From an uncultured Mycoplasmatota bacterium (GTDB lineage: Bacteria > Bacillota_I > Bacilli_A > RF39 > UBA660): a DNA stretch of 64,000 bases. The DNA is taken from NCBI GenBank assembly GCA_948467605.1, contig CAOKET010000005.1:1-64000 (forward strand). Reading direction: 5' to 3'. This document shows, in pieces, positions 49,016 to 64,000 of the stretch. Numbering within the stretch: the stretch's first letter is position 1; every line of letters begins with the position of its first letter. The translations under genes and the position numbers were made by a program. A model generated the notes under the pieces. The model was not told where the DNA came from. It worked only from the letters and a program-made list of their open reading frames with translations, and made no database searches.

Positions 49016-49091
<76 letters not shown>

Positions 49092-49103
49092 AAAAAAAAT
49101 AAA

Positions 49104-49179
49104 TGGCGGTTCCGACGGGACTTGAACCCGCGATCTTCTGCGTGACAGGCAGACGTGATAACCACTACACTACGGAACC
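49104..49179 (-). tRNA. tRNA-Asp (GTC)
   Basis: Acceptor GGTTCCG/CGGAACC, anticodon loop CTGTCAC in a TCTGC/GCAGA stem, encoded CCA. Confidence 0.96.
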
Positions 49180-49255
49180 AAAACCAACGCATAAATAATA
49201 TAACATACTAATACGAAATATGTCAACAAAGATTTTACATTTTTTAAATTTTATA

Positions 49256-49279
49256 TAAAAAAACAGTTTTTAAACTGTA
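49256..49279 (-). terminator. Terminator after tRNA-fMet
   Basis: ACAGTTT-aa-AAACTGT with a following T-run splits the cluster into two transcripts. Confidence 0.75.
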
Positions 49280-49287
49280 ATTATCAA

Positions 49288-49364
<77 letters not shown>

Positions 49365-49421
49365 ATAATTAATATTCTAATATATTATATACAAATATTT
49401 TAGAAATATTACAAAAATAAA

Positions 49422-49514
49422 TGGCGGAGGAAAAGGGATTCGAACCCCTGCGCCGCTCACACGACCTTCCGGTTTTCAAGACCGGTCCCTTCAACCAGAC
49501 TTGGGTATTCCTCC
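49422..49514 (-). tRNA. tRNA-Ser (TGA)
   Basis: Anticodon loop CTTGAAA in a CCGGT/ACCGG stem, long variable arm (93 bases in all), encoded CCA. Confidence 0.96.
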
Positions 49515-49518
49515 AAAA

Positions 49519-49602
49519 TGGTGCGGGTAGAGGGACTTGAACCCCCATGTCTAGGACACTAGATCCTAAGTCTAGCGCGTCTGCCAATTCCGCCATACCC
49601 GC
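49519..49602 (-). tRNA. tRNA-Leu (TAG)
   Basis: Anticodon loop CTTAGGA in a CTAGA/TCTAG stem, a variable arm (84 bases in all), encoded CCA. Confidence 0.96.
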
Positions 49603-49604
49603 GA

Positions 49605-49681
49605 TGGTGGACCCTGTAGGACTCGAACCTACGACCGTCCGGTTATGAGCCGGATGCTCTAACCAACTGAGCTAAGGGTCC
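49605..49681 (-). tRNA. tRNA with CAT anticodon, more likely Ile2 than elongator Met
   Basis: Anticodon loop CTCATAA in a TCCGG/CCGGA stem. The acceptor GGACCCT has C4-G69 and C5-G68 pairs, which TilS favours for lysidine-modified Ile2, and the body resembles the Ile2 type I know from Bacillus. It begins the transcript of Ile2-Leu-Ser-fMet. Elongator Met is the alternative. Confidence 0.85.
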
Positions 49682-49766: not shown

Positions 49767-49934
49767 CTAGCAGCCTCTACAAACCACAATCTTATATATT
49801 CCCCTTAAAAATGTTCCTAATTGCTGACCTGAATAGAAAAACATTTCATAAATAACAGTTAATATTACAAATATAATTGGTATTAGTATTATTAACAACA
49901 TCTTTTTTAAAATATTTGATTTATTAACTAACAA
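49767..49934 (-). CDS. Small membrane peptide overlapping the double-glycine peptide gene
   Basis: One hydrophobic helix (LLIILIPIIFVILTVIY), then SGQQLGTFLRGIYK and a Cys-containing end (VVCRGC). The C-terminal GQxLGT motif recurs in the neighbouring double-glycine peptide, so the two are related. The start is uncertain: TTG at 49934 overlaps the previous stop, and ATG at 49901 lacks a ribosome site (44 residues). Immunity or partner peptide is the likely role. Confidence 0.5.
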   Translation of the reverse strand: MLVNKSNILKKMLLIILIPIIFVILTVIYEMFFYSGQQLGTFLRGIYKIVVCRGC

Positions 49935-50089
49935 TAGTTCTTCTTTCTCATTCTATTAATTGATGTTCCAAGAGATTGACCTAATTGATACAAAAATTGT
50001 ACACCTTTTATTATACTACTTAAAACTGTGCCAGAAATACCTGAACCACCACCAACTATTGTTAATAATTCTTCTTTTTCTATATTCAT
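49928..50089 (-). CDS. Double-glycine-leader peptide, class II bacteriocin-like
   Basis: 53 residues after a perfect GGAGG site. The leader MNIEKEELLTIVGG has the pattern of ComC/bacteriocin leaders cut by peptidase-containing (C39) ABC transporters after Gly-Gly. The mature part, roughly GSGISGTVLSSIIKG followed by a YQLGQSLGTS core and ending NYC, is a small amphipathic peptide. It may be an antimicrobial or a signal peptide. No transporter with a C39 domain is in the window, so it would need one elsewhere. A hairpin with a T-run (49741-49806) follows the overlapping second ORF. Confidence 0.8.
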   Translation of the reverse strand: MNIEKEELLTIVGGGSGISGTVLSSIIKGVQFLYQLGQSLGTSINRMRKKNYC

Positions 50090-50174
50090 ACACTACCTCC
50101 TTTAATTACAGCGAAGCGGTCTAACATAACCATACAAACCTTAATGATGTAACAAAGAGAATTGAGGATTGAAT

Positions 50175-50639
50175 ATGAACTGCAAATACTTTAAAAGAAG
50201 AAGAAAAAAAGGAAAAGTATATTACTATTGTAACATACTTAAAAAAGTAATAACATATGAATATTGTAAATGCTGTGGAAAAAAGGAATATAGACAATAC
50301 AAAAGTATTAAACAAAGAACTTATAAACAGGAAAAGAAAGAAAAGAACAGATTTAGTGTATTCACTAAAGATTTAGAACATTGTATTATATGTGGAAAAA
50401 CTCATATTAATAAACACGAAATATTCTTTGGAAGAAATAGAAATAACTCTATAAAACATGGATTTGTTATACCTTTATGTGAAGGGGAACATCACAATCA
50501 AGTTGGTTGTACTGGAATTCATTTTGATACTGAATTATGTTTAGAATGGCAAAAAAAAGCGCAGATGTATTTTGAGAAAAACATTGGCACTCGTGAGGAA
50601 TTTGTTAGTATGTTTGGTACTAACTATTTATCAAAATGA
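50175..50639 (+). CDS. HNH-like phage protein with zinc knuckle
   Basis: 154 residues from ATG 50175 after GAGG. Two Cys pairs near the N-terminus (CKCCGKKEY), then CIICGKTH with a HEIFFGRNR loop, a HHNQVGC core and a helical end. The layout is of DUF968/NinG-like phage recombination proteins with an HNH-type zinc site. It has a basic N-terminal half (RRRKKGK). Presence between tRNAs and the prophage suggests it belongs to a remnant of a phage replication or NinG-type region. Confidence 0.7.
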   Translation: MNCKYFKRRRKKGKVYYYCNILKKVITYEYCKCCGKKEYRQYKSIKQRTYKQEKKEKNRFSVFTKDLEHCIICGKTHINKHEIFFGRNRNNSIKHGFVIPLCEGEHHNQVGCTGIHFDTELCLEWQKKAQMYFEKNIGTREEFVSMFGTNYLSK

Positions 50640-50678
50640 TTAGCATAATTTCTTCATCTTTAATTAATTCATACATAT

Positions 50679-50727
50679 AAAAACACCTCCCAATTAAATT
50701 ATTCTATATAAAGGGGTGTTTTCCTTT
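50679..50727 (+). terminator. Terminator after the HNH-like gene
   Basis: AAACACCTC and a GGGGTGTTT arm form a stem-loop followed by TTTT. An 18-codon minus-strand ORF with a ribosome site (GGAGGTG) overlaps it, but it is too short to call. Confidence 0.6.
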
Positions 50728-50766
50728 TAAATAATCAAATAAATTTATAAAATGTTATTAAAAGCA

Positions 50767-50795
50767 TTGACATATAGTACTATATGTGGTATAAT
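50767..50795 (+). promoter_or_regulatory. Strong promoter with a palindromic operator in its spacer
   Basis: TTGACA (50767-50772) and TATAAT (50790-50795) with 17-base spacing. The spacer holds CATATAGTACTATATG (50771-50786), a perfect 16-base palindrome and a likely repressor site that would block RNA polymerase. Confidence 0.85.
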
Positions 50796-50818
50796 TAATA
50801 CAGAAAGGAGATGAAGAA

Positions 50819-50917
50819 GTGACAATTACATTAAAATTGTTCAAAATGAAAATAACTTTAGAAATTGCTTTCGAACGAAAATCTAAAGTTACAAAAATCA
50901 GAAGAAGTTGGCATTAA
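50819..50917 (+). CDS. 32-aa basic peptide under the palindromic promoter
   Basis: The GTG start follows AAAGGAG. The peptide begins TITLKLFKMKITLE, alternating hydrophobic and basic residues, and ends KVTKIRRSWH. Short peptides of this look occur beside phage/plasmid regulators, but I know no function. It is followed by a hairpin (GAAGTTGGC, GCCACTTC) without a T-run before the next gene. Confidence 0.6.
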   Translation: MTITLKLFKMKITLEIAFERKSKVTKIRRSWH

Positions 50918-50967
50918 GCCACTTCCTATGATTATTATAGTATTAATAATGTAATTTGTCAAATAAT

Positions 50968-51552
50968 ATGGAAAAAGAAGAATTTAATCAAAAAGATTAT
51001 ATAAAGGGGTATAATAAAGAAAATTATTCACAATTTAAAGCATATTTAAAAAAGGAAGAAAAAAAAGAAATTGACGAATATTTAAACCAAAATAATTTAA
51101 GCAAATCGGAATTTATATTACATTCTTATATTAAAGTTATGGAGGAAAATAGAATGAAAATACAAGATTTATACAAAATTAATATTTTAGATAGAAAGGC
51201 AGCATTACTATTAAATAATAATATTGATAATAGTTTTTATGACAACTATATGTTTAAAGACTTAGAATGGTTGTTAGAAAATCAAAATAAAATAGAATCT
51301 GATTTTAATAACAACATAGATAAATTAAAATTTGATATTATACTAAATTCTAATTTAGATGAGAGGATTAATTTAATAATAAATTTAAAAAATGGAACTA
51401 TAGAAGAATTTTCAAATTATATAAATTATATTCCATATCAAAATTTAGATCAAAAGGATAAAAATGATATGATGAGTTTATTTTATGAATTTAGAAAAAT
51501 TAATGATACTCATGAGTTAATTGAGTTTTTTGAAAAATTTAGAAGAAGATAG
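50968..51552 (+). CDS. Ribbon-helix-helix-type DNA-binding protein
   Basis: 194 residues from ATG 50968 (TTG 50956 also possible). No ribosome site precedes either start, so translation may depend on coupling to the peptide upstream. The segment KGYNKENYSQFKAYLKK followed by LSKSEFILHSYIK resembles the RHH/Arc-like N-terminus of phage and plasmid regulators. The C-terminal ~120 residues are helical and unrecognised. It is the best candidate for binding the palindrome in its own promoter, giving a self-controlled two-gene operon. Confidence 0.7.
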   Translation: MEKEEFNQKDYIKGYNKENYSQFKAYLKKEEKKEIDEYLNQNNLSKSEFILHSYIKVMEENRMKIQDLYKINILDRKAALLLNNNIDNSFYDNYMFKDLEWLLENQNKIESDFNNNIDKLKFDIILNSNLDERINLIINLKNGTIEEFSNYINYIPYQNLDQKDKNDMMSLFYEFRKINDTHELIEFFEKFRRR

Positions 51553-51554
51553 AA

Positions 51555-51591
51555 AAAATACCCTAGCGATTACATGCTAAGGTATTTTTTT
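51555..51591 (+). terminator. Terminator of the RHH operon
   Basis: AAATACC-ctagc-gattacat-gctaa-GGTATTT with a long T-run. Confidence 0.8.
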
Positions 51592-51710
51592 AAACTCTTA
51601 TACTTGATATTATCTACTAATACATAATCATCAAATATAATTACTTTTTTACATTTTATTTCAATTTTTTTTATAAATTCCTTTAGCTCTTTTCTATTTA
51701 ACTTTTTCAT
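51570..51710 (-). CDS. Small basic ORF, 46 aa
   Basis: MKKLNRKELKEFIKK then KVIIFDDYVLVDN, with GGGGATTTTGT before the ATG. It is convergent with the RHH operon and its 3' end overlaps the terminator. Unknown; may be a short regulator. Confidence 0.45.
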   Translation of the reverse strand: MKKLNRKELKEFIKKIEIKCKKVIIFDDYVLVDNIKYKSLKKYLSM

Positions 51711-51780
51711 ACAAAATCCCCTTTCTTGATGAGATATAATATATCATTTAATTGCAGAATTTTGTCGTTTTATGAAAACA

Positions 51781-51808
51781 AAAAAAGACTAGTCATTAAG
51801 ACTAGTCC
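51781..51808 (-). terminator. Strong terminator beside the prophage end
   Basis: GACTAGTC-ttaat-GACTAGTC followed by seven Ts on the minus strand. Each arm is itself a palindrome. Confidence 0.75.
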
Positions 51809-51862
51809 CAATTGGAGCGACGTACTCAATATTACGTTTAAATTTTCATTCGACATCCAACT

Positions 51863-51899
51863 GTAGACCTGACAAGACTCGAACGTCTCCGGTGTATAC
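51863..51899 (-). other. tRNA-like 3' fragment, possible prophage attachment site
   Basis: On the minus strand, CACCGGAG is followed by a T-arm-like ACGTTCGAGTC and an acceptor-like end. The 5' half of a tRNA is missing. It lies at the left edge of the prophage, where an integrase that targets a tRNA would leave such a core. The T-stem pairing is imperfect, so this is tentative. Confidence 0.35.
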
Positions 51900-51981
51900 A
51901 TATTATCATATTTTGAGCATAATGTCAATTATATAAATGTATACATTTTATTTATATGCTATTTTCATCATATTATTACTG

Positions 51982-52761
51982 TTAAGGCAACAACAATCTT
52001 ATATTAAGATACTCTAATTGCATATGGATAGGACGTACATTTTGTGAAATCATAGCTCTCCTTGTTTCTCCAGCAACAAAATCTGATGCTTGTATACATT
52101 CATGCGTATGTGATAATACGTATTTTAAATCAACTTCTAGGTCAGAAAATAATATTGGAGAATATTTTATTTGATAATTAAAATTTACATGTCCAATTGT
52201 TAATTCTTTTTTTATGTCTTCTACAAATTGCCTATTTGTGTCTGTTGATGTACCCTGCTGATCTATTCTTATTATAAGTTTCACAGGATTGTTTGGATTA
52301 ATATTACCTTTTTGAATATAAAACTTTAAGATTTCTTTTATGATTCTTCTTTGACAATAGTCTCTAAACCTCCCTCTTTCTTGTTTTGTTTCCATCTTGT
52401 TACTTGTTATTTTTTGGTTGTTTATTATTACTGCATAATTAGTTTGCCTTTTTACTAAATTAAACAGCCATCTCTTATGTTTTGGCGTAATATTTGTATC
52501 TTTAATTTCAGGGCATTTATGATTACAATTTGGCTTAATTTCTTTACTTTTACAATAATAGCATTTTATAGTATCTACTATTTTTTTGTATTCCCTTACA
52601 AACGTATCTCTTTCATCTTTTGAAGCAAAACATACACCACCATAAATGCAAAATTGATCATTTAAATGTAACACGCCTGAATCATCCATATCAATATAAA
52701 TAGTTTGTATCGTATTCGATGTTTTAGTTTCTTCATCTAATTTAATCTGTTCTTCTGTCAT
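51982..52761 (-). CDS. DUF3800 protein in the prophage's terminal position
   Basis: 259 residues. DUF3800 pattern: IYIDMDDSGV at residue 22 (Asp-rich start), FCIYGGVCF, a four-Cys insert (CYYCKSKE to CNHKC) that is unusual for the family and likely binds zinc, LIIRIDQQGT, and HECIQASDFVAGETRRA. The fold is RNase H-like. The gene lies after the late-operon terminator (52835-52866) and has its own start after AAGGAC, typical of an accessory gene carried by a prophage. Roles in phage exclusion have been suggested for some DUF3800 proteins; it is unproven here. Confidence 0.85.
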   Translation of the reverse strand: MTEEQIKLDEETKTSNTIQTIYIDMDDSGVLHLNDQFCIYGGVCFASKDERDTFVREYKKIVDTIKCYYCKSKEIKPNCNHKCPEIKDTNITPKHKRWLFNLVKRQTNYAVIINNQKITSNKMETKQERGRFRDYCQRRIIKEILKFYIQKGNINPNNPVKLIIRIDQQGTSTDTNRQFVEDIKKELTIGHVNFNYQIKYSPILFSDLEVDLKYVLSHTHECIQASDFVAGETRRAMISQNVRPIHMQLEYLNIRLLLP

Positions 52762-52834
52762 AATAGTCCTTCCCAGACGATACTGCTGTCTTATATAAGA
52801 GTATTATATTACAAATATCTAATTTATTCAACAA

Positions 52835-52866
52835 AAAAGGACCTAGACTTTATGTCTAGGTTTTAT
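52835..52866 (-). terminator. Terminator of the phage late operon
   Basis: ACCTAGAC-ataaa-GTCTAGGT followed by TTTTTT. Confidence 0.85.
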
Positions 52867-52867
52867 A

Positions 52868-53581
52868 TTATAAATTAATATGTACAGCTCTACCCATGTT
52901 AGTATTATTTGTGTATGTATATTTGATAATACCCTTTTTAACTAATTCCTTACAATATGCTAGTACTTTAGACTTGTCTACACCTACTACATAGAAATCT
53001 GCTGCATTACCATATAAGTGAGGACTATTTTTAACACTACCTTTTAAACTATCATTGAATGTTTGGCATCGCACTCCACTAGTTATGTTAACAGCTGCAT
53101 TAAAATAATCTCTAATCATTTGTAGAACTTGTACAAGTTTTAAATTTGGTTCGTATGGATAACCTCCACATTTACCACATGGGCATTTAAACTCTTCTCT
53201 TTTAAAGTTCTTAAAATCATCCCAAGACAATGACTTTACTGATTCATTTAACTTAGCTAAGGTTAATGGTCCACAAGAACTATCTACAGTTAATCCATTT
53301 GATTTTTGAAATTGCCTTAAAGCATTTATAGTGTTATTACCAACTAGTCCATCAATTTTACCAGGATTAAAACCTTTACTATTAAGTTTAGTTTGAATAT
53401 CTTTCCAAACCTCAATAGATTTTTGCTCTGTTTTTGGTCCAAAAGAGCCATCTACAGTAAGATTATAAACTTGTTGAAATTTAATTGTTGCTGCTTTGAA
53501 TTTTGGGCCTAGTAAACCATCTATCTTACCAGTGTAATATCCGAGATGTTTAAGTTGAAGTTGTTTTTGCTTATTTGTCAT
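52868..53581 (-). CDS. Phage endolysin: two PG-binding repeats plus M15-type peptidase
   Basis: 237 residues from ATG 53581, eight bases after GGAG. Two peptidoglycan-binding-1 repeats (LGYYTGKIDGLLGPK and GFNPGKIDGLVGNN) are followed by an M15_3 peptidase domain with a Cys-rich lead (CPCGKCGG), the zinc motif SPHLYGNAADF and the last ligand AVHINL. It breaks the stem peptide cross-link to release phage. It overlaps the holin by 11 bases. Confidence 0.93.
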   Translation of the reverse strand: MTNKQKQLQLKHLGYYTGKIDGLLGPKFKAATIKFQQVYNLTVDGSFGPKTEQKSIEVWKDIQTKLNSKGFNPGKIDGLVGNNTINALRQFQKSNGLTVDSSCGPLTLAKLNESVKSLSWDDFKNFKREEFKCPCGKCGGYPYEPNLKLVQVLQMIRDYFNAAVNITSGVRCQTFNDSLKGSVKNSPHLYGNAADFYVVGVDKSKVLAYCKELVKKGIIKYTYTNNTNMGRAVHINL

Positions 53582-54035
53582 TTTCTTCATCTCCTTCTAA
53601 TATTTCAATTTTTGTTTCAGTTGTACTTTTAATTAGTTTAATTAATGGTAATAGAAATTTAGGTAATGGTGTTCCTATATCAACTAGGTTTTCCAAGATT
53701 GATATAATCTCGTTACATATTAACCATACTGCAACAATACAACTAATTATTGTTGGAAAATTAAATGTAAATCCTAAATTCTCTATACTATATAAAATAA
53801 GGACATCAATCATAAAACCTACTACAATAAGTAAATACATAGTTATTTTTTTCTTTATCCCCTCAAAAGATTTATAAGAATTTATCTTCTCACCTCTTTT
53901 AGGGCAAGCCATTAAACCTGTTATATAGTCAATAACATTTGCTGATACTAACAATATTAGAGGTACAGTTAATAACCCAAAAAAGCTAAATAATGCTCCA
54001 AATATTGTTGTTAAAAATATTTTAAATTTATCCAT
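53571..54035 (-). CDS. Phage holin (phi LC3/toxin-secretion type)
   Basis: 154 residues with three or four membrane helices in the first 120 (GALFSFFGLLTVPLILLVS, then VIDYITGLMACP as in Holin_4-type proteins). The basic loop between helices contains KRGEKINSYKSFEG. The end is charged. It forms the membrane hole for the endolysin, directly downstream. Confidence 0.9.
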   Translation of the reverse strand: MDKFKIFLTTIFGALFSFFGLLTVPLILLVSANVIDYITGLMACPKRGEKINSYKSFEGIKKKITMYLLIVVGFMIDVLILYSIENLGFTFNFPTIISCIVAVWLICNEIISILENLVDIGTPLPKFLLPLIKLIKSTTETKIEILEGDEENDK

Positions 54036-54036
54036 T

Positions 54037-54234
54037 TTATTTCACCTCAAAATTTTCTTTAAACTTTCTTATTATCTCTCTTGCTTCTTCTCTCTTGCTC
54101 AATATTTCTGTATAGTCTTCATCTATTTGTTTATTCATAAATTGATATTCAATTATTTTATTTGCAACATAATCAGTAGTTGCTAAATAGTTATAAGCAT
54201 TTATAACTTCTAAACCCATATTTTCTGTGCTCAT
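54037..54234 (-). CDS. Small phage protein, 65 aa
   Basis: Unknown, helical: TENMGLEVINAYNYLAT then a Lys/Glu-rich end. GAGGTGATA precedes the ATG. One base separates its stop from the holin start, and a similar small ORF commonly sits between tail and lysis genes in siphoviruses. Confidence 0.75.
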   Translation of the reverse strand: MSTENMGLEVINAYNYLATTDYVANKIIEYQFMNKQIDEDYTEILSKREEAREIIRKFKENFEVK

Positions 54235-54254
54235 ATTATCACCTCAATTATTTT

Positions 54255-56474
54255 TTATACTAATCTTATTCCAATTACATCTGATACTGTAATCTTTTTG
54301 ACATCATATCCACTAACTTCACGTACACAGAAGTCAAGCCACTCATTACCTACTACTTTAATGTAACCTCTAAAATACCAACTACCTAACATAGTTATAT
54401 TAAAATAATAATATTCATTACCTCCATAAGGTATAGTTAGCCATTGCCCTTCATCACCATTATTATTTGACACTCTAACACAAAGTAAATCGAATTGATT
54501 AGCATATGCTGACATTCTAACACCGACTACATTCCCTATCCCTGTTGAATATACAGGAGATGTTATTAATTTTTCTTTATTTGTGGTCATTCTTGAGATT
54601 AATTTCCACTCACTCCATGCTCCAGCATTAATTCTTTGACGTCTAAATCCATTACCATATGTATCCATAAAAGTCTGCCAAATCCAGTTGTTTGAACCAT
54701 TGTAGGTAGTACAATTATTAATATCTGTTGTTAGTTTTCCATAGATGTTTCCACTATAAGGGGCACCATCTACATTTGAACCAGCTATACTATAATATCC
54801 TTCATGAATAGCATCATTAAAACCAATTTGATTTCCATAATATTTTTTAACATATCCACTATTAGAGATTAATTCTCCTGTAAAAACAAAATTTCCATTT
54901 GGGTCAACATATGCTTGTTTTTCATAATTTGCTGCTCCATTTGGTCTAAAAACTATATTGCTTCCACTTCCACAGATAAGTGCTTCTCCCCATTTATCGA
55001 AAAATATTCTACCTTTTTCTTCTCCATTAAGTTGCCCTACAAATCCACAATCACTGTCATTTTCGCAATTTAATATAAATTTATCTCCATTTTCACCTGC
55101 ATTTTTGGCATTCCACCATAAAATTGGATTACCTTTAGTAACAGCTTGTTGTACACCAGTCGATATTAATTTATCAGTATAATACAAAATAAATTCATAA
55201 TTGTTTCGATAATCAAAATTCTCACCTACTATAAATGGAGAAGGATAAGAACCTGTACCACTATGAAATGTGTTACCATCTATTACATAATGTTTGCCTT
55301 GTTCTAAAACTCCACCATGTATATAATCTCCTTGCCCTTTTATTCTATAACTCCAAGTTAAAACTAAAGTATTAGCAACTTGTCCAAAATTGTCATTAAA
55401 ATAATTACCACTAAATGACAACGAGACTTGTCCATTAGTAGGTTGAGTTCTATAAAAGTTAGGATTTACGGATAATGGTATGTAATTTATAAGCTCTTTT
55501 TCTATAATTACAGTTGTTGAGTAACCTCTGCTGTCAGTTGCTACCACTGTAATTGTCCCTGTCATTATTTTATTTATTATTGTAGGACTACTAGCACTAA
55601 TGCCATTTACTGTTACACTTGTTAGTGTTGCATTATTTCTAGGATTTGCACTATATGTTACTTGTGCATTTGAATATCCATTTACAAGTTTATTATTATC
55701 ACCAGTTAGTTGAATTGTATAATCATTAATATCAATAGCACTAGCACTTAATAATGGTTTACACAATTCTTCATTTGCAATTGCAGTAAATGTAGTATCT
55801 TTAGTTCCTATTAATTTATCACTATTATAAGTTTCACAAGTTATTGTACACTTACCACTTTTTGCATTTGGTATTTGTGTATAAAAACTTGTTGGCACCT
55901 TAAATGGAACTGTTGTTAGGTTTGTCTTTGTTACTATTGTTCCACTTAAATCACCAAAACTATATTTTAATGTATGAGTAAAACTATCACTTGCTCTTGT
56001 TATAACTATATTAGATATACTATCTATGTTACTATCATTTGCAGTTACAGTACTTGCTCGTGGTATTGTTGTTAATTTTATCTTCCCACTAACACTACCT
56101 CCACTCAAATGTGTAGCAGTTGAACTAAATTCTGCTCTTACACTTATTTCTTTTTCACCATTATCATTATGTGTTATATCTCCAGTCCACTCACATAATA
56201 CGTTTTCTTTTTGATTCCTATAATCGGTAGTAGGATTATTATATGCTCTTTCTGCATCATTAACATAGATTTTAGTAGGATTTGCATATCCATAGTTTCC
56301 CCATGTATTGCCCTCAGATTGATTTGTAACTTTAATTGTTATATTAGATTTATTAGTATCTGTATCTATACTATTTTCTGTTACAATAAGTTTTAATATA
56401 TAATGACTACCATAAGTGCCACTACATCTACTTTCATAAGTTTGTGTTTGTAAAGCTTTTTTACTTTCTGCCAT
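54255..56474 (-). CDS. Phage tail/baseplate protein with DUF859-like N-terminus
   Basis: 739 residues. The N-terminal ~150 residues (SRCSGTYGSHYILKLI to SGKIKLTTIPRAS) look like DUF859 siphovirus proteins. Repeated immunoglobulin-like strands fill the centre. Near the end, GAWSEWKLI fits a pyocin-knob-like receptor-binding module, followed by a carbohydrate-binding-like C-terminus. It probably contacts the host surface. GGGGGTGTAA precedes the start. Confidence 0.85.
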   Translation of the reverse strand: MAESKKALQTQTYESRCSGTYGSHYILKLIVTENSIDTDTNKSNITIKVTNQSEGNTWGNYGYANPTKIYVNDAERAYNNPTTDYRNQKENVLCEWTGDITHNDNGEKEISVRAEFSSTATHLSGGSVSGKIKLTTIPRASTVTANDSNIDSISNIVITRASDSFTHTLKYSFGDLSGTIVTKTNLTTVPFKVPTSFYTQIPNAKSGKCTITCETYNSDKLIGTKDTTFTAIANEELCKPLLSASAIDINDYTIQLTGDNNKLVNGYSNAQVTYSANPRNNATLTSVTVNGISASSPTIINKIMTGTITVVATDSRGYSTTVIIEKELINYIPLSVNPNFYRTQPTNGQVSLSFSGNYFNDNFGQVANTLVLTWSYRIKGQGDYIHGGVLEQGKHYVIDGNTFHSGTGSYPSPFIVGENFDYRNNYEFILYYTDKLISTGVQQAVTKGNPILWWNAKNAGENGDKFILNCENDSDCGFVGQLNGEEKGRIFFDKWGEALICGSGSNIVFRPNGAANYEKQAYVDPNGNFVFTGELISNSGYVKKYYGNQIGFNDAIHEGYYSIAGSNVDGAPYSGNIYGKLTTDINNCTTYNGSNNWIWQTFMDTYGNGFRRQRINAGAWSEWKLISRMTTNKEKLITSPVYSTGIGNVVGVRMSAYANQFDLLCVRVSNNNGDEGQWLTIPYGGNEYYYFNITMLGSWYFRGYIKVVGNEWLDFCVREVSGYDVKKITVSDVIGIRLV

Positions 56475-56485
56475 TTTTACACCCC

Positions 56486-58063
56486 CTACAATACAAAAAT
56501 TCCTGTGCCATCTTCATAATCTTCAATTCTACTATTTTTACCTATTGTTAAATATTTCTCTACTGTCATATTTTTTGATGTAACAATAGTTTCACCTGTA
56601 TTTTCATCATATCCTGCAAATAAAAGTTTTTCGCCAGATGAACCAGTATTGTCGATTATTGACAAACCACTTTCATTAAAGTTTCCTTTTGTTTTTGCAC
56701 CTGTTTTTTCAATAGTCAAACCATCATCTGCAAATGTGCCAGTTTCAGTAACAACTTTAGTAACACTACCATCAGTCAATTTCGTATTTACTTCTGTTTT
56801 TGTGAAAGTATCTGTTTGTAATTGAGTGACACTTTTTTCTATTTCAATAGTTTTAGAATTTGGAGTGTAGTCATTAAATTTAGTTAATAATTCTTGATAA
56901 TTATTATTTATTGTTGTATCATATGTATCTACTTGACTTACTAATGCCTGTATTTCTTTAGATTGATGGTCAACTATAAGACTAAGTTTTGTATTTGACC
57001 TCTCTGTCTTATCTGACTTTGTATAATCAGTTATAGTAGTTTCTGGTAGTTCTGTGTATATGTATTCTGATTGTCCACAATCATTACTTATATTAAGTTC
57101 ATCATTTAATAATAAACATGGATATGTAGAATTACCAACATTTACATTGTATTTATCATATATGTCATAATAACAAATACCAGGACTAGAAAAATCATTT
57201 ACAAAATATGATAAACCATTTAGTTTATCAAACATCTCTTGTAAATATTCACCTCTGTCATCCCAATTCATTATTTGGTTATCTTTTATTTTAATTTCAC
57301 ATATCCCGTTTTCGGCTATACTTTCGTCATCCTTTAAAGCAATAAAATCACTATCTGCACTTCTACTTAATACAATAGAATTTACTGGACCATATTTTTG
57401 ACCAAATTGTACATTAGTATCTTGTAGATATTCTTCATCTATAGTGTCATTAGTTTCATTAACATATCTTATTTCTAATTTGCCATCAGTATTTATACAT
57501 ATATTAGATGCTGTTGATTGTGCTAATTCATCCAATACATCTCTATATGTATAACCTAATCCTTTATATAAATCTTTTTTTATCGTTTTATTATAGTTGA
57601 CAAATACATCATCCTTATTTTGAAATTCTAATCCTATTCTGTTGCATATTTCGGTTATATAATCTCTTATTGAAATTGGATATACTATGTCTAACTCTTC
57701 ATAATCAATCATTGAATATAACATTTTATCATAACATACTATAGAATATGTATTACTATCCTCATTTTTAGAGTTTTCGTATACAACAAAGTCACCATAA
57801 TTAATATATTCAAAAGAATTTTTTACTTTTATTCCATGTAAAAAATTAATTACTGTATTTTTAGGTATTTGAGTTTCACATTCAATATTAAGCATTCTCA
57901 TAGATGACTTTAATAAATCAGTATTAATGCTATATCTAATAGACTTTATATTTTCAGAAGGCAATATATGTGTTTCTTTATCAATATCATATGTTAGTAA
58001 TTCATCTAATTCTTTTCCAAATTTTTTTATTTCATCTTTTAAATCAATAGTATGTATTCTCAT
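56486..58063 (-). CDS. Phage tail-associated protein (Tal-like)
   Basis: 525 residues. The N-terminal 330 residues have the tail-hub character of siphovirus Tal proteins (SMRMLNIECETQIPKN, then YPISIRDYITEICNRI). The C-terminal 150 residues contain a coiled-coil stretch and short repeats leading to the fibre interface. There is no visible peptidase or lysozyme motif. The start overlaps the stop of the previous gene by one base (TAATG). Confidence 0.8.
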   Translation of the reverse strand: MRIHTIDLKDEIKKFGKELDELLTYDIDKETHILPSENIKSIRYSINTDLLKSSMRMLNIECETQIPKNTVINFLHGIKVKNSFEYINYGDFVVYENSKNEDSNTYSIVCYDKMLYSMIDYEELDIVYPISIRDYITEICNRIGLEFQNKDDVFVNYNKTIKKDLYKGLGYTYRDVLDELAQSTASNICINTDGKLEIRYVNETNDTIDEEYLQDTNVQFGQKYGPVNSIVLSRSADSDFIALKDDESIAENGICEIKIKDNQIMNWDDRGEYLQEMFDKLNGLSYFVNDFSSPGICYYDIYDKYNVNVGNSTYPCLLLNDELNISNDCGQSEYIYTELPETTITDYTKSDKTERSNTKLSLIVDHQSKEIQALVSQVDTYDTTINNNYQELLTKFNDYTPNSKTIEIEKSVTQLQTDTFTKTEVNTKLTDGSVTKVVTETGTFADDGLTIEKTGAKTKGNFNESGLSIIDNTGSSGEKLLFAGYDENTGETIVTSKNMTVEKYLTIGKNSRIEDYEDGTGIFVL

Positions 58064-58434
58064 TATGGCCTCTTTTTAGTTGATATAAATGCACAACTAA
58101 ATGGTTGTCCATCTTCTATCGCTCTTGAAACTAATTCCCAATCACCTGTATAAGTTTCTATTGTAATCTTCTTGTTTTTTTCAGGATCATAGTATTGCAA
58201 ATTTTGTCTTGCCTTATTTAAAAGAGGGGCTATTATATTTAGCTCCTCTTTTTCTAATTTTCTAAATTTTAAAGTTATTTTTGGAAATATTCCCTTAAAT
58301 GTACCAACCATGTTACCCGCTAGATTTCTACCTGTATCATTGCTCCATAATTTGTTGTACCCAAACTTGGCCTCTGTTATATATTGTCCAATATTAATAT
58401 CATCTATAATTATACTATCTTTATCAATATACAT
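58063..58434 (-). CDS. Phage distal-tail-like protein
   Basis: 123 residues, beta-rich, with KFGYNKLWSNDTGRNLAG and a conserved-looking YYDPEKN segment. This resembles DUF6711-like proteins that lie between tape measure and Tal genes and probably shape the tail tip. It is coupled to the next gene by TAATG. Confidence 0.75.
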   Translation of the reverse strand: MYIDKDSIIIDDINIGQYITEAKFGYNKLWSNDTGRNLAGNMVGTFKGIFPKITLKFRKLEKEELNIIAPLLNKARQNLQYYDPEKNKKITIETYTGDWELVSRAIEDGQPFSCAFISTKKRP

Positions 58435-58445
58435 ATAATCACTTC

Positions 58446-60191
58446 CTACTTATTTGTTGCAAAATCTTTGTATTTTTTAGTGTTATTCATTTGTCTTTCT
58501 ATTAACCTTCCATCAAGATAGATATAGTTTACGTTGCCATTGCCACTGCTTCCACCACCAAATTGTGCTATTTGTTCTGCCAGTGTTGACAAATAATTAG
58601 GTGTCATAGGCACTACTGCCTCAGGATAACCAGCTTCACCTATAATAGCTCTTGTTGGTTGAGTTACTATGTCCCCTAATGCAAATCCTCTACTACTAGT
58701 ATTATGTAATGCTTGCGATGCTGTAATAGCAATAGAGCCAGCACCACTTATAGATTTAACATCAGCTATAGTTTTTTTATACTGATCTGTTTCTTTTGCA
58801 TCAAATGTGGTTACTACTTGAATATTGTATTGTTTTGCTAATCTTTCGTATTCACTTTTTAAAGATTTGGATTCAATACCTAACTCATCCATTATCTTTA
58901 TTTGTTTTCCTAAAGTATCATAATAGTCCTTTGCACTTTGTTCATTTAATAATCCCTGATCATATAGTTTCTTATATTGAGTAGTAGACCATAATAAACT
59001 CTCATATAATGCCATTTGTTGCTCAGTTGCCTTTTGATTAGCACCTGTTATTTGACCCCACCAATTTTTTGATTCTTCCAATTCATTATATTGTTGTACA
59101 ACTCTATCTGTAGTTTCTTTTAGACGTGTCTCCAATACCTTTTGTTGTTCTGCAGTTGCTTTACCCTGACTTTGGAGTTCCCAAAAAGCATTAGATAATT
59201 TTTCATTTTGATTTGTAACTCCTCGTTCATTTTTTGTTAGCTTATCCATACTATCATTTAATTCTTTTACTGATTGAATAACCTCTTGTACACCCTCAAT
59301 TGCCAACGTGACTAGCCAAACTGTAGCTACTGCCATTAAAGCAGTAGACAATCCTCCTAATCCACCAGCACCTACTAGAGATTTTATATTTTTCATAAGT
59401 CCTGCTATCTTGACTGCCCCAAAAGCGACACCTAATGCAATCCCTACTTTACTAATCCAATTCCAGTTTTCTTTTAACCAAAATGCTAAATCTTGTAATT
59501 TCTTTATAATATTTTCATCTAACTCAGGTATTTCTATAAGCCCAGAACCTGTACTAATATTACTTGCTGATGAACTATTATCTTCTATCTTTCTTATTTC
59601 ATCAAAATCGAAAGTTTGATTATTCAATTGTTTTTGTGCAGATGCTTGTTTTTCAAGTGCTTTTGCATTTGCCCTCGCGATAAAATCTATACCTGTTAAT
59701 GCTTTAACAAATTCATTTAAATATCCTAATCCTTTGAGTAAACTATTAGATATATAATCAATTGCTGGTGCTAAAAAGCTTCCTAAACCTACCCATAAAT
59801 TTTGAAGTCGCTTAGCCATTTCTGTATCTTGTGATAAATAAGCACTACTAGCTTTACTCACGGCAGAATATATAGTTCCTATACTAAATAAAGATAACCC
59901 AAATTTTTTTAATGAATTTATACCACTTTCAAAATCTTTACCAATTTTTGAACCTTTATTATTTGGCAACTTTTCTATAGAATTTCTTAGAGATAAAATC
60001 TTATTCTTTGTCTTTTCAACATCTGCCTCTAACTTTATACGTTCATCTTCATTCATTCTTAAACTAACTGGTATTTCTAAATCATTTTTTAATGTTTCTT
60101 CCCAAATAGCTAGTTTATTTTCTAATTCTGCTATTTGTGCATCAACACTTTTGGTTTCTATTTCTGTTCCTAGTACTAGTTTTCCATCCAC
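58446..60191 (-). CDS. Phage tape measure protein (short)
   Basis: 581 residues, short for the family, so the tail would be short (roughly 85 nm if 1.5 angstrom per residue). Coiled coils at 15-90, hydrophobic patches (about 230-300, IAGLMKNIKSLVGAGG) and a C-terminal domain with VTQPTRAIIGEAGYPEAVVP, which is a recurrent tape-measure end. The start is GTG 60191 after AAGGAAGTGATA. Confidence 0.9.
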   Translation of the reverse strand: MDGKLVLGTEIETKSVDAQIAELENKLAIWEETLKNDLEIPVSLRMNEDERIKLEADVEKTKNKILSLRNSIEKLPNNKGSKIGKDFESGINSLKKFGLSLFSIGTIYSAVSKASSAYLSQDTEMAKRLQNLWVGLGSFLAPAIDYISNSLLKGLGYLNEFVKALTGIDFIARANAKALEKQASAQKQLNNQTFDFDEIRKIEDNSSSASNISTGSGLIEIPELDENIIKKLQDLAFWLKENWNWISKVGIALGVAFGAVKIAGLMKNIKSLVGAGGLGGLSTALMAVATVWLVTLAIEGVQEVIQSVKELNDSMDKLTKNERGVTNQNEKLSNAFWELQSQGKATAEQQKVLETRLKETTDRVVQQYNELEESKNWWGQITGANQKATEQQMALYESLLWSTTQYKKLYDQGLLNEQSAKDYYDTLGKQIKIMDELGIESKSLKSEYERLAKQYNIQVVTTFDAKETDQYKKTIADVKSISGAGSIAITASQALHNTSSRGFALGDIVTQPTRAIIGEAGYPEAVVPMTPNYLSTLAEQIAQFGGGSSGNGNVNYIYLDGRLIERQMNNTKKYKDFATNK

Positions 60192-60195
60192 ATTA

Positions 60196-60771
60196 TCACT
60201 TCCTTTTTGGATTTATTTTTGTTAATTCGTAGAATTTTTTTACACTTTCTTTTTGCGATTTTGTTAATTCCTTTTTTGGTTTCTTTAATGCGACTTTTTC
60301 CTTTGCCTTAATTATTCTTTGTTTTTCCTTTTCATCACTTATATTTGAAACATCGTAAGTTCTCAACTCTCTTATTCTCTCTAGTACACTATCAGTAGTT
60401 AATCCTTCAATTAATTCATTAAATTCATACCAATGCAAATAATCTAATTTTAAAATATCTAATCCATGATAGACTTGTTTAATAGAAGTTCTAATATATT
60501 TTTCATCTTGAAAATAATCCATATCTATCTCAGAATTATCACTACTTTCCTCTCTACCACACATTAAATATTCTTTTATTTTTGTTTTTAAGATATATTC
60601 ATCTTGCGACAAAACATCATATCCTAAAAGTAAACTCTCACAAGCATAAAAACGTTCTAAGTCTGTTATACTAACATCTGATATTACTCTTAAACAAGCT
60701 AATGCTACACGATAATCAGTATTGATATTGTATATATGTCCATTAGCTTCCATTTTTGTGGGATATGACAT
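60196..60771 (-). CDS. Phage Gp15-like tail assembly protein
   Basis: 191 residues with the Gp15 pattern (ITDLERFYACESLLLG, then LDILKLDYLHWYEF). It belongs with tail-assembly chaperones before the tape measure gene. The basic tail (KKPKKELTKSQKESVKK) is typical. One base lies between its start and the previous gene's stop. Confidence 0.88.
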   Translation of the reverse strand: MSYPTKMEANGHIYNINTDYRVALACLRVISDVSITDLERFYACESLLLGYDVLSQDEYILKTKIKEYLMCGREESSDNSEIDMDYFQDEKYIRTSIKQVYHGLDILKLDYLHWYEFNELIEGLTTDSVLERIRELRTYDVSNISDEKEKQRIIKAKEKVALKKPKKELTKSQKESVKKFYELTKINPKRK

Positions 60772-60772
60772 A

Positions 60773-61213
60773 TTACATCACTTCTTCATTTTGGGGCATA
60801 TACTTATTTACTAGTTTTTCTTTTGCTTTATCCAATTTAATCTGCATTTTAGGATAATGTTCTTCTAAGGCAAATAGTAGATTTTCAAACATACCATATT
60901 TGTTTTTATCACCAAATATTTTTTGACAAGAACCTGCTCCTAGAAAGCTATCAAACTCTTTTCTTAATTGAATACATTTTTCTTTTTCGAGAGTTATTAA
61001 TTCACGTGTCATTTTTACTTGATCATATTTATATTTTTCACTTATATCAAGTACTTGTTGTCTATATTGTTCATCTATTTTTCTGATTCTATCACTAGCT
61101 TCTATTATTTTTTCGGGCAAACCTATATCAGTTAAATCAAACTCTATATATTCGCCTTTATCATTAACTTCTAGCTTATATGTATCATCACTATCTAATC
61201 TTAACTTTTCCAT
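60773..61213 (-). CDS. Phage DUF6673-like tail assembly protein
   Basis: 146 residues. An acidic N-terminus (LDSDDTYKLEVNDKGEY), then a helical region (YRQQVLDISEKYKYDQVKM) and the final ALEEHYPKMQIK. The position just before Gp15 and the form fit a first tail-assembly chaperone; a programmed frameshift between the two is possible but no slippery site is clear. Confidence 0.75.
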   Translation of the reverse strand: MEKLRLDSDDTYKLEVNDKGEYIEFDLTDIGLPEKIIEASDRIRKIDEQYRQQVLDISEKYKYDQVKMTRELITLEKEKCIQLRKEFDSFLGAGSCQKIFGDKNKYGMFENLLFALEEHYPKMQIKLDKAKEKLVNKYMPQNEEVM

Positions 61214-61268
61214 ATTTCCTCCCTATATAAAAAATGAGGTAGGTAATATTTATACCTACCTTAGATCA

Positions 61269-61778
61269 TTATTCTGCATTTGGTGTAAATACTGGTTTAC
61301 CATCAACAATTGTTGCTGTACCTTCAACTGGATCACCATTAAAATGAATAGAATATCCTATAGTAGCAGTATCACTCATATATGAGCTTACTGGAGTTAT
61401 ACAATTACTTCTCTTCGCTGGATATTTCATAACACCATCTACTTCTTTACCATTCCACAAGTCTATTTCTAGAGCATGGCTTTGAACATCTTTACCACTT
61501 TTATCTCTTTTTGTGTTTAAATATTCAAAACATGGTTCTCCCTTATAGCATTTTTGATTTACATCCATTTGTTTTTGATTACTATCATGTGAACTTGTAC
61601 TATTCTTATGAATTATCCATTTATTTGTAGTAATTTGTGGATTATAGTTTATAGTACCATCGGTTACACCAAAACCTAAAAGTTCCCAATTTTCATTTTC
61701 TGCTTTCGGTGTAGTATCAAGATATATAACATGTTGGTCTCTTGTAATATCCTCATACATTTCTTCATTGCTATTCAT
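61269..61778 (-). CDS. Phage major tail tube protein
   Basis: 169 residues, beta-rich. Early residues INYNPQITTNKWIIH and later SCITP-like region plus PVEGTATIVDGKP fit tail tube proteins. It is the sole gene with its own AGGAGG after a 35-base space. It should form the tube hexamers on the tape measure. Confidence 0.8.
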   Translation of the reverse strand: MNSNEEMYEDITRDQHVIYLDTTPKAENENWELLGFGVTDGTINYNPQITTNKWIIHKNSTSSHDSNQKQMDVNQKCYKGEPCFEYLNTKRDKSGKDVQSHALEIDLWNGKEVDGVMKYPAKRSNCITPVSSYMSDTATIGYSIHFNGDPVEGTATIVDGKPVFTPNAE

Positions 61779-61812
61779 ATTTTTTCCTCCTTACTTAATA
61801 TAAAAAAAGAAG

Positions 61813-62025
61813 CTAATTGGCTTCTTCTGTTACATTCAATTTAATTTTTGACTTTTGTGATTCCTTATACACTTTTACAAATTCCTTTTCAGACATTGGA
61901 TATATATACCCATTCTCATTTAACTTCCATAAACTAGAAAAATCTGTAAAATCTGTTAATATATCATCTTTTTTATATTCTTTTCCATTATAATTACATG
62001 TTCTTTTGAATTTTATTGGTTTCAT
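61813..62025 (-). CDS. Small phage protein between tail tube and tail completion genes
   Basis: 70 residues from ATG 62025 (TTG 62028 possible) after GGGAGGG. Basic N-terminus (KPIKFKRTCNYNGKEYKK). Position between tail tube and completion genes; function unknown. It overlaps the upstream gene by 32 bases. Confidence 0.7.
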   Translation of the reverse strand: MKPIKFKRTCNYNGKEYKKDDILTDFTDFSSLWKLNENGYIYPMSEKEFVKVYKESQKSKIKLNVTEEAN

Positions 62026-62443
62026 CAAATAAACCCTCCCTAAACTTAATATAAGTAATTCTCATTAATATAGCATATTTAGCAGTATTAGGACTAGCAT
62101 CTAATATACCACCATTATCAAGACATTCTATTGATTGTATACCTTTAATTTTTGGTCTAATCTTATGTTTGCTGTTATATTCTATCAAATTATATAAATC
62201 TTCATAAAATGAACTATTAGATATATTTTGTAATACATCAGCACCATAGCTATTACAACTCAATAATTGAAATTGAAATTGTCTTTTGGAACTACCATCT
62301 CTGTATGTTTCTAATATTGGGTTAATAGGTACAGGAACTATCGCAAATTCTGTTGGCTTCTCACTTAAAAAATCAACGTTGATTCTATTGTTCTCATCAA
62401 TTAATTTAATTTCGAATAAATATTTTCTTATTTCTTCTACCAT
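61994..62443 (-). CDS. Phage minor capsid or tail-terminator-like protein
   Basis: 149 residues. LFEIKLIDENNRINV then FAIVPVPINPILE and FQFQLLSCNSYGADVL are like the minor-capsid/tail-terminator proteins that follow minor capsid 2. The start overlaps the stop of the previous gene (TAATG). Confidence 0.75.
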   Translation of the reverse strand: MVEEIRKYLFEIKLIDENNRINVDFLSEKPTEFAIVPVPINPILETYRDGSSKRQFQFQLLSCNSYGADVLQNISNSSFYEDLYNLIEYNSKHKIRPKIKGIQSIECLDNGGILDASPNTAKYAILMRITYIKFREGLFDETNKIQKNM

Positions 62444-62871
62444 TATTTACACCCCCTATTTACATATTCTTGTACTTCTTTAACAACTTCATTTCCTTCT
62501 GAATTCTGCATTTTTTTATCCCAAAATGCACCTGTTCCAGGTGTATGATAAGTTAATGGTATACCAGTTGGAACTTTCGTTATTCCTGGTCTAGACCAAA
62601 AGCCATAATCAGGGCTATAAAATGCACCTTTTTTGTACTTAGGATCTTCATATAATTCACCCATATACATATAATGAGCATCTGGACTATTGTAGATTAT
62701 AGAATCTGGCTTTAAAGTAACATTCTGATTTAAATGGCTAGATGTTCCACCTGGTGTAAATTTTGTCATATGTTTAAAACAAGTATTAGTAAAAAAAGCA
62801 TGAGCAGGTCCATTTGGTTGGATACCTAGTCGTGCTTTTATTACACTTGCTGGTTTAAGTTTAACTGGCAC
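62443..62871 (-). CDS. Phage minor capsid protein 2-like
   Basis: 142 residues. It has the family features: FFTNTCFKHMTKFTPGGTSSHLN, then YMYMGELYEDP and GTGAFWDKKMQ. These proteins sit at the head-tail junction. The start is GTG 62871 overlapping the preceding stop (TAGTG). Confidence 0.9.
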   Translation of the reverse strand: MPVKLKPASVIKARLGIQPNGPAHAFFTNTCFKHMTKFTPGGTSSHLNQNVTLKPDSIIYNSPDAHYMYMGELYEDPKYKKGAFYSPDYGFWSRPGITKVPTGIPLTYHTPGTGAFWDKKMQNSEGNEVVKEVQEYVNRGCK

Positions 62872-63224
62872 TATTTAACACCTAGAAATACATGTTGCAT
62901 ATTATAACTACCATAGTTGTTATTAACATACGTTATGATATTATATGTATCTACTTTTATATCACTTTGCATAGTTATTTCATCTTCTATAATACCTTCT
63001 ACAACAAAGTCACCAATTTCAAAAGGAATAGTTTCTAAATCTTCATTCTCATCGTAAAATATCCATATACTAACATCGTTAGCTTTATCATATCCTTTGT
63101 TTATGCTTGCACCTTCTCCACCTTGCCACATTACATTTTCAATAGGATATCTGTGCCACTCATCAACTTTAGTTTTAGGATTGTAATGTTTATGGTACAA
63201 AGTCATTGATTTATTACTTTTCAT
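62871..63224 (-). CDS. Phage minor capsid protein 1-like
   Basis: About 117 residues from ATG 63224, or 111 from ATG 63206. The core MTLYHKHYNPKTKVDEWHRY and a later IWIFYDENEDLETIPFEIGD are the family pattern. It overlaps the upstream gene by 11 bases. The start is uncertain because both candidates have weak ribosome sites. Confidence 0.85.
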   Translation of the reverse strand: MKSNKSMTLYHKHYNPKTKVDEWHRYPIENVMWQGGEGASINKGYDKANDVSIWIFYDENEDLETIPFEIGDFVVEGIIEDEITMQSDIKVDTYNIITYVNNNYGSYNMQHVFLGVK

Positions 63225-63585
63225 CAGCACCACAATACAAAGCATAAACACCATTAACTTTTACCTCTGATAGGTATTGACTTATGATGTTTTTCTTTGT
63301 TTTCTTACTTTCCTTACTTGATTGATAAGCGACACTATAGTTTCCTACACTTTCACTAGTTAAACTAGCATTATTCTCACTATGTAATATGTCAATTAGC
63401 TCATACACGCATAATTTTAATTCTTGTGGATATTCTTCTTTAGACAATTGTTTAAATCTATTAGATGTCATTTCATCTATATTTTTTTCTGCTCTATATT
63501 CTAATAAATTAAAGGACTTTTCTATTAGTTTGCCCCCTAATTCTTTATACTCATCATAAGTTAAGTATTGGTTTTCAAAGTTCAT
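63214..63585 (-). CDS. Phage head-tail connector-like protein
   Basis: 123 residues with an alpha-helical connector form (YLTYDEYKELGGKLIEK, then EEYPQELKLCVYELIDIL) and a Ser/Lys-rich link. In siphoviruses this sits after the major capsid gene and closes the head. The ribosome site AGGAGGG is strong. Confidence 0.8.
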   Translation of the reverse strand: MNFENQYLTYDEYKELGGKLIEKSFNLLEYRAEKNIDEMTSNRFKQLSKEEYPQELKLCVYELIDILHSENNASLTSESVGNYSVAYQSSKESKKTKKNIISQYLSEVKVNGVYALYCGADEK

Positions 63586-63602
63586 AGATAAGCCCTCCTT
63601 AA

Positions 63603-63758
63603 TTACTCATTTTCTTTCTTTGTTTCTTTTTGATTAGTCTTATCAGTTTTATTTTCTTTCTTTGTTTCTTTTGGTAGGTATCCTTGTCCTTTATAAAGCA
63701 AGTTGTATGCTTTTTCAGTTGCTACAATAACTTTATCCTTTAAAACGTATTCTTTCAT
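63603..63758 (-). CDS. Small phage protein, 51 aa, Lys/Glu-rich tail
   Basis: MKEYVLKDKVIVATEKAYN followed by LLYKGQGYLP and a repeat of ETKKEN. It lies between the capsid and connector genes, with a GGGTG site. It resembles small head-proximal proteins found here in phages and is clearly coding. Confidence 0.75.
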   Translation of the reverse strand: MKEYVLKDKVIVATEKAYNLLYKGQGYLPKETKKENKTDKTNQKETKKENE

Positions 63759-63760
63759 AA

Positions 63761-64000
63761 TTATTCACCCTTTGGAGTAACTACACAGAAAGCTTCATCT
63801 TTAACTGGTAAATATCCTAATCTCATTGTTGCTTTGATTGCTATCATATCTTGTTCTGCTAATGAAATAGGTTTACCATCTTCATCAACAGTACCTTCTA
63901 ATGTAGCTTCTTTTAATATTTCATAAGATAATCCATCTCTTATACCTACTAATGAATATGTTTTAAAATCTCCACCAATAAGTTCTGCTTTTGTTTTATC
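63761..64000 (-). CDS. Major capsid protein, C-terminal part (window edge)
   Basis: 79 residues are seen, ending at the window edge. KTYSLVGIRDGLSYEILKEA and the final IKATMRLGYLPVKDEAF fit the C-terminus of HK97-fold major capsid proteins. The start lies beyond the window. Confidence 0.85.
   Translation of the reverse strand, partial: DKTKAELIGGDFKTYSLVGIRDGLSYEILKEATLEGTVDEDGKPISLAEQDMIAIKATMRLGYLPVKDEAFCVVTPKGE

Follow-up and report, generated by a model that had tools for sequence, protein, structure and literature searches.

Peptides A and B, encoded on the minus strand of a 64,000-nucleotide stretch from an uncultured Mycoplasmatota bacterium (the window: positions 1 to 64,000 of contig CAOKET010000005.1, here C5; GTDB lineage RF39, UBA660), would in our moderately confident judgement form the distal half of an operon for a secreted two-peptide (class IIb-like) bacteriocin, a core operon kept by vertical descent, with B giving immunity by mimicry and the operon split by a prophage in this genome. 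The first-pass annotation of the window had described a 53-residue peptide with a double-glycine (GG) leader and an overlapping membrane peptide, and both open reading frames (ORFs) were confirmed:

49928 to 50089, minus strand: peptide A, GG-leader precursor of 53 residues, with core GSGISGTVLSSIIKGVQFLYQLGQSLGTSINRMRKKNYC and invariant GG, GxxxG and Cys.
49767 to 49934, minus strand: peptide B, 55 residues, TTG start, leaderless, a single transmembrane (TM) helix and an A-like GxxxGT..R / Cys tail.

Peptide A starts with ATG at 50089 behind the ribosome-binding site AAAGGAGG, carries the GG leader MNIEKEELLTIVGG, and its end is overlapped by the start of B by 7 nt. Both peptides contain GQxLGT and have a terminal Cys in the tail, and this shared core and tail, which the first-pass annotation had pointed out, turned out to be beyond chance. 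The hhalign comparison of A cores with B gave a probability of 95% and an E-value of 3.6e-8 (E-values for such short peptides depend on the profiles) over 37 columns, so that almost all of the A core, GxxxGT..R and the Cys included, is aligned; the same comparison of A with P1, the GG peptide encoded next to A, gave nothing. Judged by these alignments, B is a paralogue of the mature region of A. The glycines of GxxxG (100 and 100%) and the C-terminal Cys (100%) were fully conserved in A cores, where the motif reads GQSLG or GRSLG, and the B family had GxxxG at 100 and 100%, T at 77%, R at 82% and Cys at 55%, with B seeds picked by position after A and later hidden Markov model rounds favouring the motif. 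B has a positive N-flank and one hydrophobic helix, with the first motif Gly about six residues after the helix core, and the N-flank was more positive than the C-flank in 86% of B sequences. This layout fits an N-in/C-out anchor.

The gene order in relatives is C39 ABC exporter (Pfam domains C39, ABC_membrane and ABC_tran), often a membrane protein of about 145 residues, P1, A and, in about 60% of loci, a B-like ORF, which overlaps A and occurs across many genera. Among 98 distinct A loci, upstream sequence longer than 1.2 kb was available for 95, and in 90 of these the exporter was within 2.5 kb upstream of A; P1 immediately precedes A in 107 of 116 loci, and several more P1 genes were found overlapping. 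The consensus core of P1 ends with FLIGVIDGYVRPLKCN, and its conservation was 98 and 100% for the glycines of GVIDG, 99% for the Pro and 99% for the Cys. The accessory protein of about 145 residues (on contig C13 of this genome, at L002:6895-7326 and in further homologues) had no Pfam match; its structure model, of good confidence with a predicted local distance difference test score of 87.7, consists of one TM helix and a beta domain, and Foldseek gave only weak matches to the membrane-fusion proteins Spr0693, BesA and MacA (E 0.09-0.3), so we read it as a putative mini membrane-fusion protein. The locus is followed by rpsU and yqeY in some relatives (rpsU in 22 of 93 loci), and a six-tRNA cluster (49016-49681) lies directly downstream of B in this genome.

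The first-pass annotation had also stated that no transporter was visible, and had named the lack of a C39 transporter in the genome as evidence against its proposal. The statement holds for the window but not for the genome, whose single C39 ABC transporter is encoded on contig C13, in the other half of the operon. On C13 this sole C39 transporter is followed by the accessory gene and then by P1, which stops early (GVIDGL and a stop codon). Beyond P1 comes a convergent serine integrase of 552 residues, whose Resolvase and Recombinase domains exceed the Pfam cut-off while its Zn ribbon falls short of it, and then phage genes for recombination, replication, terminase, portal and head morphogenesis, which run to the contig end. 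On the window side, the end of C5 encodes capsid and scaffold, after which come tail genes, holin, endolysin, attR and then the P1 tail directly before A. TerL, holin and endolysin were assigned by Pfam, and capsid, scaffold and portal by reading and gene order. Thus a prophage of about 37 kb with a large serine integrase is inserted inside P1, and its features in the window are as follows:

50102 to 50131, minus strand: 3' remnant of P1 (G-YVRPLRCN-stop), with the crossover GG at 50131-50130 and the stop codon at 50104-50102.
50100 to 50160, minus strand: prophage attR, made of the phage arm TTACATCATTAAGGTTTGTAT, GG and the bacterial half-site.
50132 to 64000, minus strand: right-hand part of the prophage, from attR to the late genes, continuing to C5:65798 and C13:1-21750 and ending with the integrase at attL.
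52868 to 53590, minus strand: prophage endolysin, PG_binding_1 and peptidase M15.
53571 to 54035, minus strand: prophage holin, Phage_holin_4_1.

Joining the C13 and C5 flanks at GG restored the P1 frame MIELQKKQLLEIKGGASKLGIAASIIAGVIFVIGVIDGYVRPLRCN, in which GVIDG runs on into YVRPLRCN, with A following. The reconstructed attP arms flanking GG make up an imperfect inverted repeat with 19 of 26 positions symmetric, and none of about 13,700 positions was as good. The exporter is invisible in the window because the prophage splits the operon and the contigs break inside the prophage, so a contig break of this kind can conceal an exporter from a single-window reading. A as an orphan GG peptide was ruled out by the C39 exporter on C13 across the prophage. 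A phage origin of A and B was also rejected, because no match was found in phage records or IMG/VR and both genes lie outside attR. A search for a promoter in the attR arm gave nothing exceeding shuffled sequences.

Of 291 genomes of the same family, protein searches found A homologues in 264, nearly always as a single copy and in 144 of 150 genera, and the C39 transporter in 275. The 241 genomes sampled from the order all fall in one family; the profile search detected A in 227 of them, and in 206 of the 217 of high quality. The genomes are fragmented assemblies, partly uncultured, and the relatives with names are uncultured Bacilli, Candidatus Onthousia and Candidatus Pelethosoma. No full-length A match was found outside the family in 296 class-level and 295 phylum-level draws, in which a few genomes of another family (f4) gave weak matches confined to the leader region. 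From these counts, with leader-only matches elsewhere, A belongs to the core genes of a single GTDB order/family of uncultured gut Bacilli and is not a sporadic bacteriocin gene. The leader-only matches came from G381, G538, G592, G686, G707 and G709, which have small genomes and belong to the same class, and are probably unrelated GG peptides. Bacteriocins are usually accessory, but this peptide secretion locus is almost invariant throughout an order of uncultured gut Bacilli with reduced genomes, which suggests a core role in their ecology.

Class IIb features were found at several levels of the locus: two different adjacent peptides in one operon, GG leaders with a dedicated C39 ABC exporter, and an essentially invariant GxxxG in both core peptides. 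The restored P1, but not A, passed a curated family model, NCBIfam TIGR03949 (class IIb, lactobin A/cerein 7B family), with 26.8 bits against a cut-off of 21.5, and 29 of 32 P1 relatives matched it at E<=0.05. Mean core charge was +3.2 for A and +1.0 for P1. Like class IIb systems (the TIGR03949 family, lactococcin G, carnobacteriocin XY), the locus has two adjacent GG-leader peptides with GxxxG in each and short cationic cores, a C39 ABC exporter with an accessory protein, and a small membrane peptide at the operon end. Unlike them, it is near-universal in a whole order, each peptide has one conserved C-terminal Cys, the putative immunity peptide and one of the bacteriocin peptides are paralogues, and A is outside all named families. 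The literature search for RF39 and bacteriocin returned nothing relevant, and the gut class II bacteriocin atlas (IIBacFinder) may already hold individual peptides of this family as sequences.

In the proposed mechanism, the C39 domain of the exporter would cleave the P1 and A precursors behind their GG, releasing cores of about 31 (P1) and 39 (A) residues for export. The two cores, each with a GxxxG helix-packing motif and one C-terminal Cys, would then pair in the target membrane and permeabilise it. B, a paralogue of the A core in which a predicted N-in/C-out membrane anchor replaces the leader, would stay in the producer membrane and most likely protect the producer by mimicking A, occupying P1 or the receptor of A. 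The prophage has recombined with P1 at the codon for the second Gly of GVIDG and truncates P1 before YVRPLRCN. With P1 truncated and A and B parted from the exporter, the system should therefore be off in the lysogen, and precise excision would restore it.

Mimicry is suggested by B being a copy of a bacteriocin peptide, and B is probably a single-pass immunity peptide mimicking A. CbnZ, the immunity protein of a two-peptide bacteriocin, is a 42-residue single-TM protein with N-in/C-out orientation, and other short class IIb immunity proteins are BrcI (53 residues), EnkIaz (52) and AbpIM (55), while the mechanism of class IIb immunity has been called a mystery (PMC6957408). B resembles these proteins in being short and encoded with the bacteriocin, and CbnZ in its predicted single-TM N-in/C-out layout, but it differs from them in bearing the mature-peptide motif of A. 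No similarity between immunity and bacteriocin peptides was described in the immunity texts searched, PMC6957408 among those, and our literature search for immunity by mimicry found no title or abstract reporting such a case. A candidate immunity peptide that is a paralogue of a bacteriocin peptide would be an evolutionary clue to class IIb immunity, and mimicry is a model that can be tested directly. The first-pass proposal of a bacteriocin and its mimic or immunity peptide remains the best reading for A and B; out of its sight were the partner P1 cut by the prophage, the exporter beyond the prophage and the order-wide core locus.

Several results weigh against a two-peptide bacteriocin with immunity by mimicry. 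The locus is near-universal and mostly single-copy across the order, which is unusual for normally patchy bacteriocins, and A passes no NCBIfam or Pfam cut-off. B stands where a dedicated membrane immunity protein would be placed in the operon, but it is missing from about 40% of loci that retain P1 and A, so B is not an obligatory immunity gene. Residue matching between A and B within a genome was not above that of shuffled pairs overall (p 0.23); the sole co-varying signal was T/S after GxxxG (p 0.001, uncorrected).

B could instead belong to the secreted complex as a membrane-anchored third component, or be an export helper acting with the accessory protein. B and the accessory gene co-occur strongly (46 loci with both, 28 with neither, 9 with accessory only and 8 with B only; Fisher p 5e-9, not phylogeny-corrected), and the weak matches of the accessory model to membrane-fusion proteins would make it an exporter-associated part. 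However, the place of B after the structural genes, its translational overlap with A and its single-TM layout match the short class IIb immunity peptides (PMC6957408), and we regard a component or helper role as rather unlikely. Another explanation is that P1 and A are an order-specific core secreted factor (a cell-envelope, self-signalling or colony factor) and that B is an anchored partner or receptor-like co-component. The order-level counts of A, its absence as a full-length match outside the family, its nearly always single copy and the optional B speak for such a factor, but P1 passes the class IIb bacteriocin model, GxxxG in both peptides with a dedicated C39 exporter is the standard two-peptide architecture, and no histidine kinase or response regulator was found among the adjacent ORFs inspected; we consider this explanation unlikely as well. 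A chance motif in an unrelated small membrane ORF is already disfavoured and very improbable, since, although the sequences are short and hydrophobic and GxxxG is frequent in TM helices, the hhalign alignment extends over nearly the whole A core and B ORFs overlap A in about 60% of loci, spread over many genera.

The split of P1 in this genome has counterparts. Four genomes (this genome, G241, G125 and L077) carry insertions at one and the same codon of P1, which encodes the second Gly of GVIDG, its GxxxG motif; two unrelated integrases made them. In G241, P1 is broken at this codon and adjoins an integrase of 69% identity, and in G125 an integrase of 70% identity adjoins the P1 tail and A; the phage arm ATAAACCACAATCAT is common to G241 and G125, and the attP arms are common to three phages. 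L077 has a different serine recombinase of 565 residues (244-1941, about 25% identity) at the same codon. For the other integrase relatives found (36-43% identity), the flanking sequence retrieved contained no remnant of P1, and no integrase relatives were found in IMG/VR.

These insertions are best read as making P1 a phage attachment site that is used recurrently, much like comK in Listeria. The comK-integrating Listeria prophages A118 and phi10403S are about 40 kb, lie inside comK and restore the gene by precise excision (PMC6872733). The prophage in P1 is likewise of similar size and inside a conserved host gene whose sequence is restored when the flanks are joined, and it should silence P1 in the way that those phages silence comK; its target, unlike comK, is a secreted peptide of a bacteriocin-type operon. 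The literature search for a prophage attB in a bacteriocin gene found no title or abstract reporting one. Repeated use of a peptide gene as attB by two integrases that are unrelated to each other may be a new example of regulation through prophage excision. A wider proposal, which we put forward only tentatively and hold to be doubtful, is that the locus is an order-defining, universal core "bacteriocin" of genome-reduced gut bacteria, that its immunity comes from a membrane-anchored duplicate of one of its peptides, and that temperate phages of the order have repeatedly and independently evolved integrases for the GxxxG codon of the partner peptide, with lysogeny switching the system off and excision switching it on.

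The integrase gene of G125 (L040 / G125:C3:19098-20920) lies beside attR, whereas those of this genome and G241 lie beside attL, although GG is a non-palindromic core; one possibility is that the G125 phage has its integrase gene inverted with respect to attP. In L077, B and rpsU are separated by an Arc/BRO-like gene of 285 residues. The HNH-like (50169-50639) and DUF3800 (51982-52761) genes at the attR end of the prophage in the window are possible cargo beside the attachment site.
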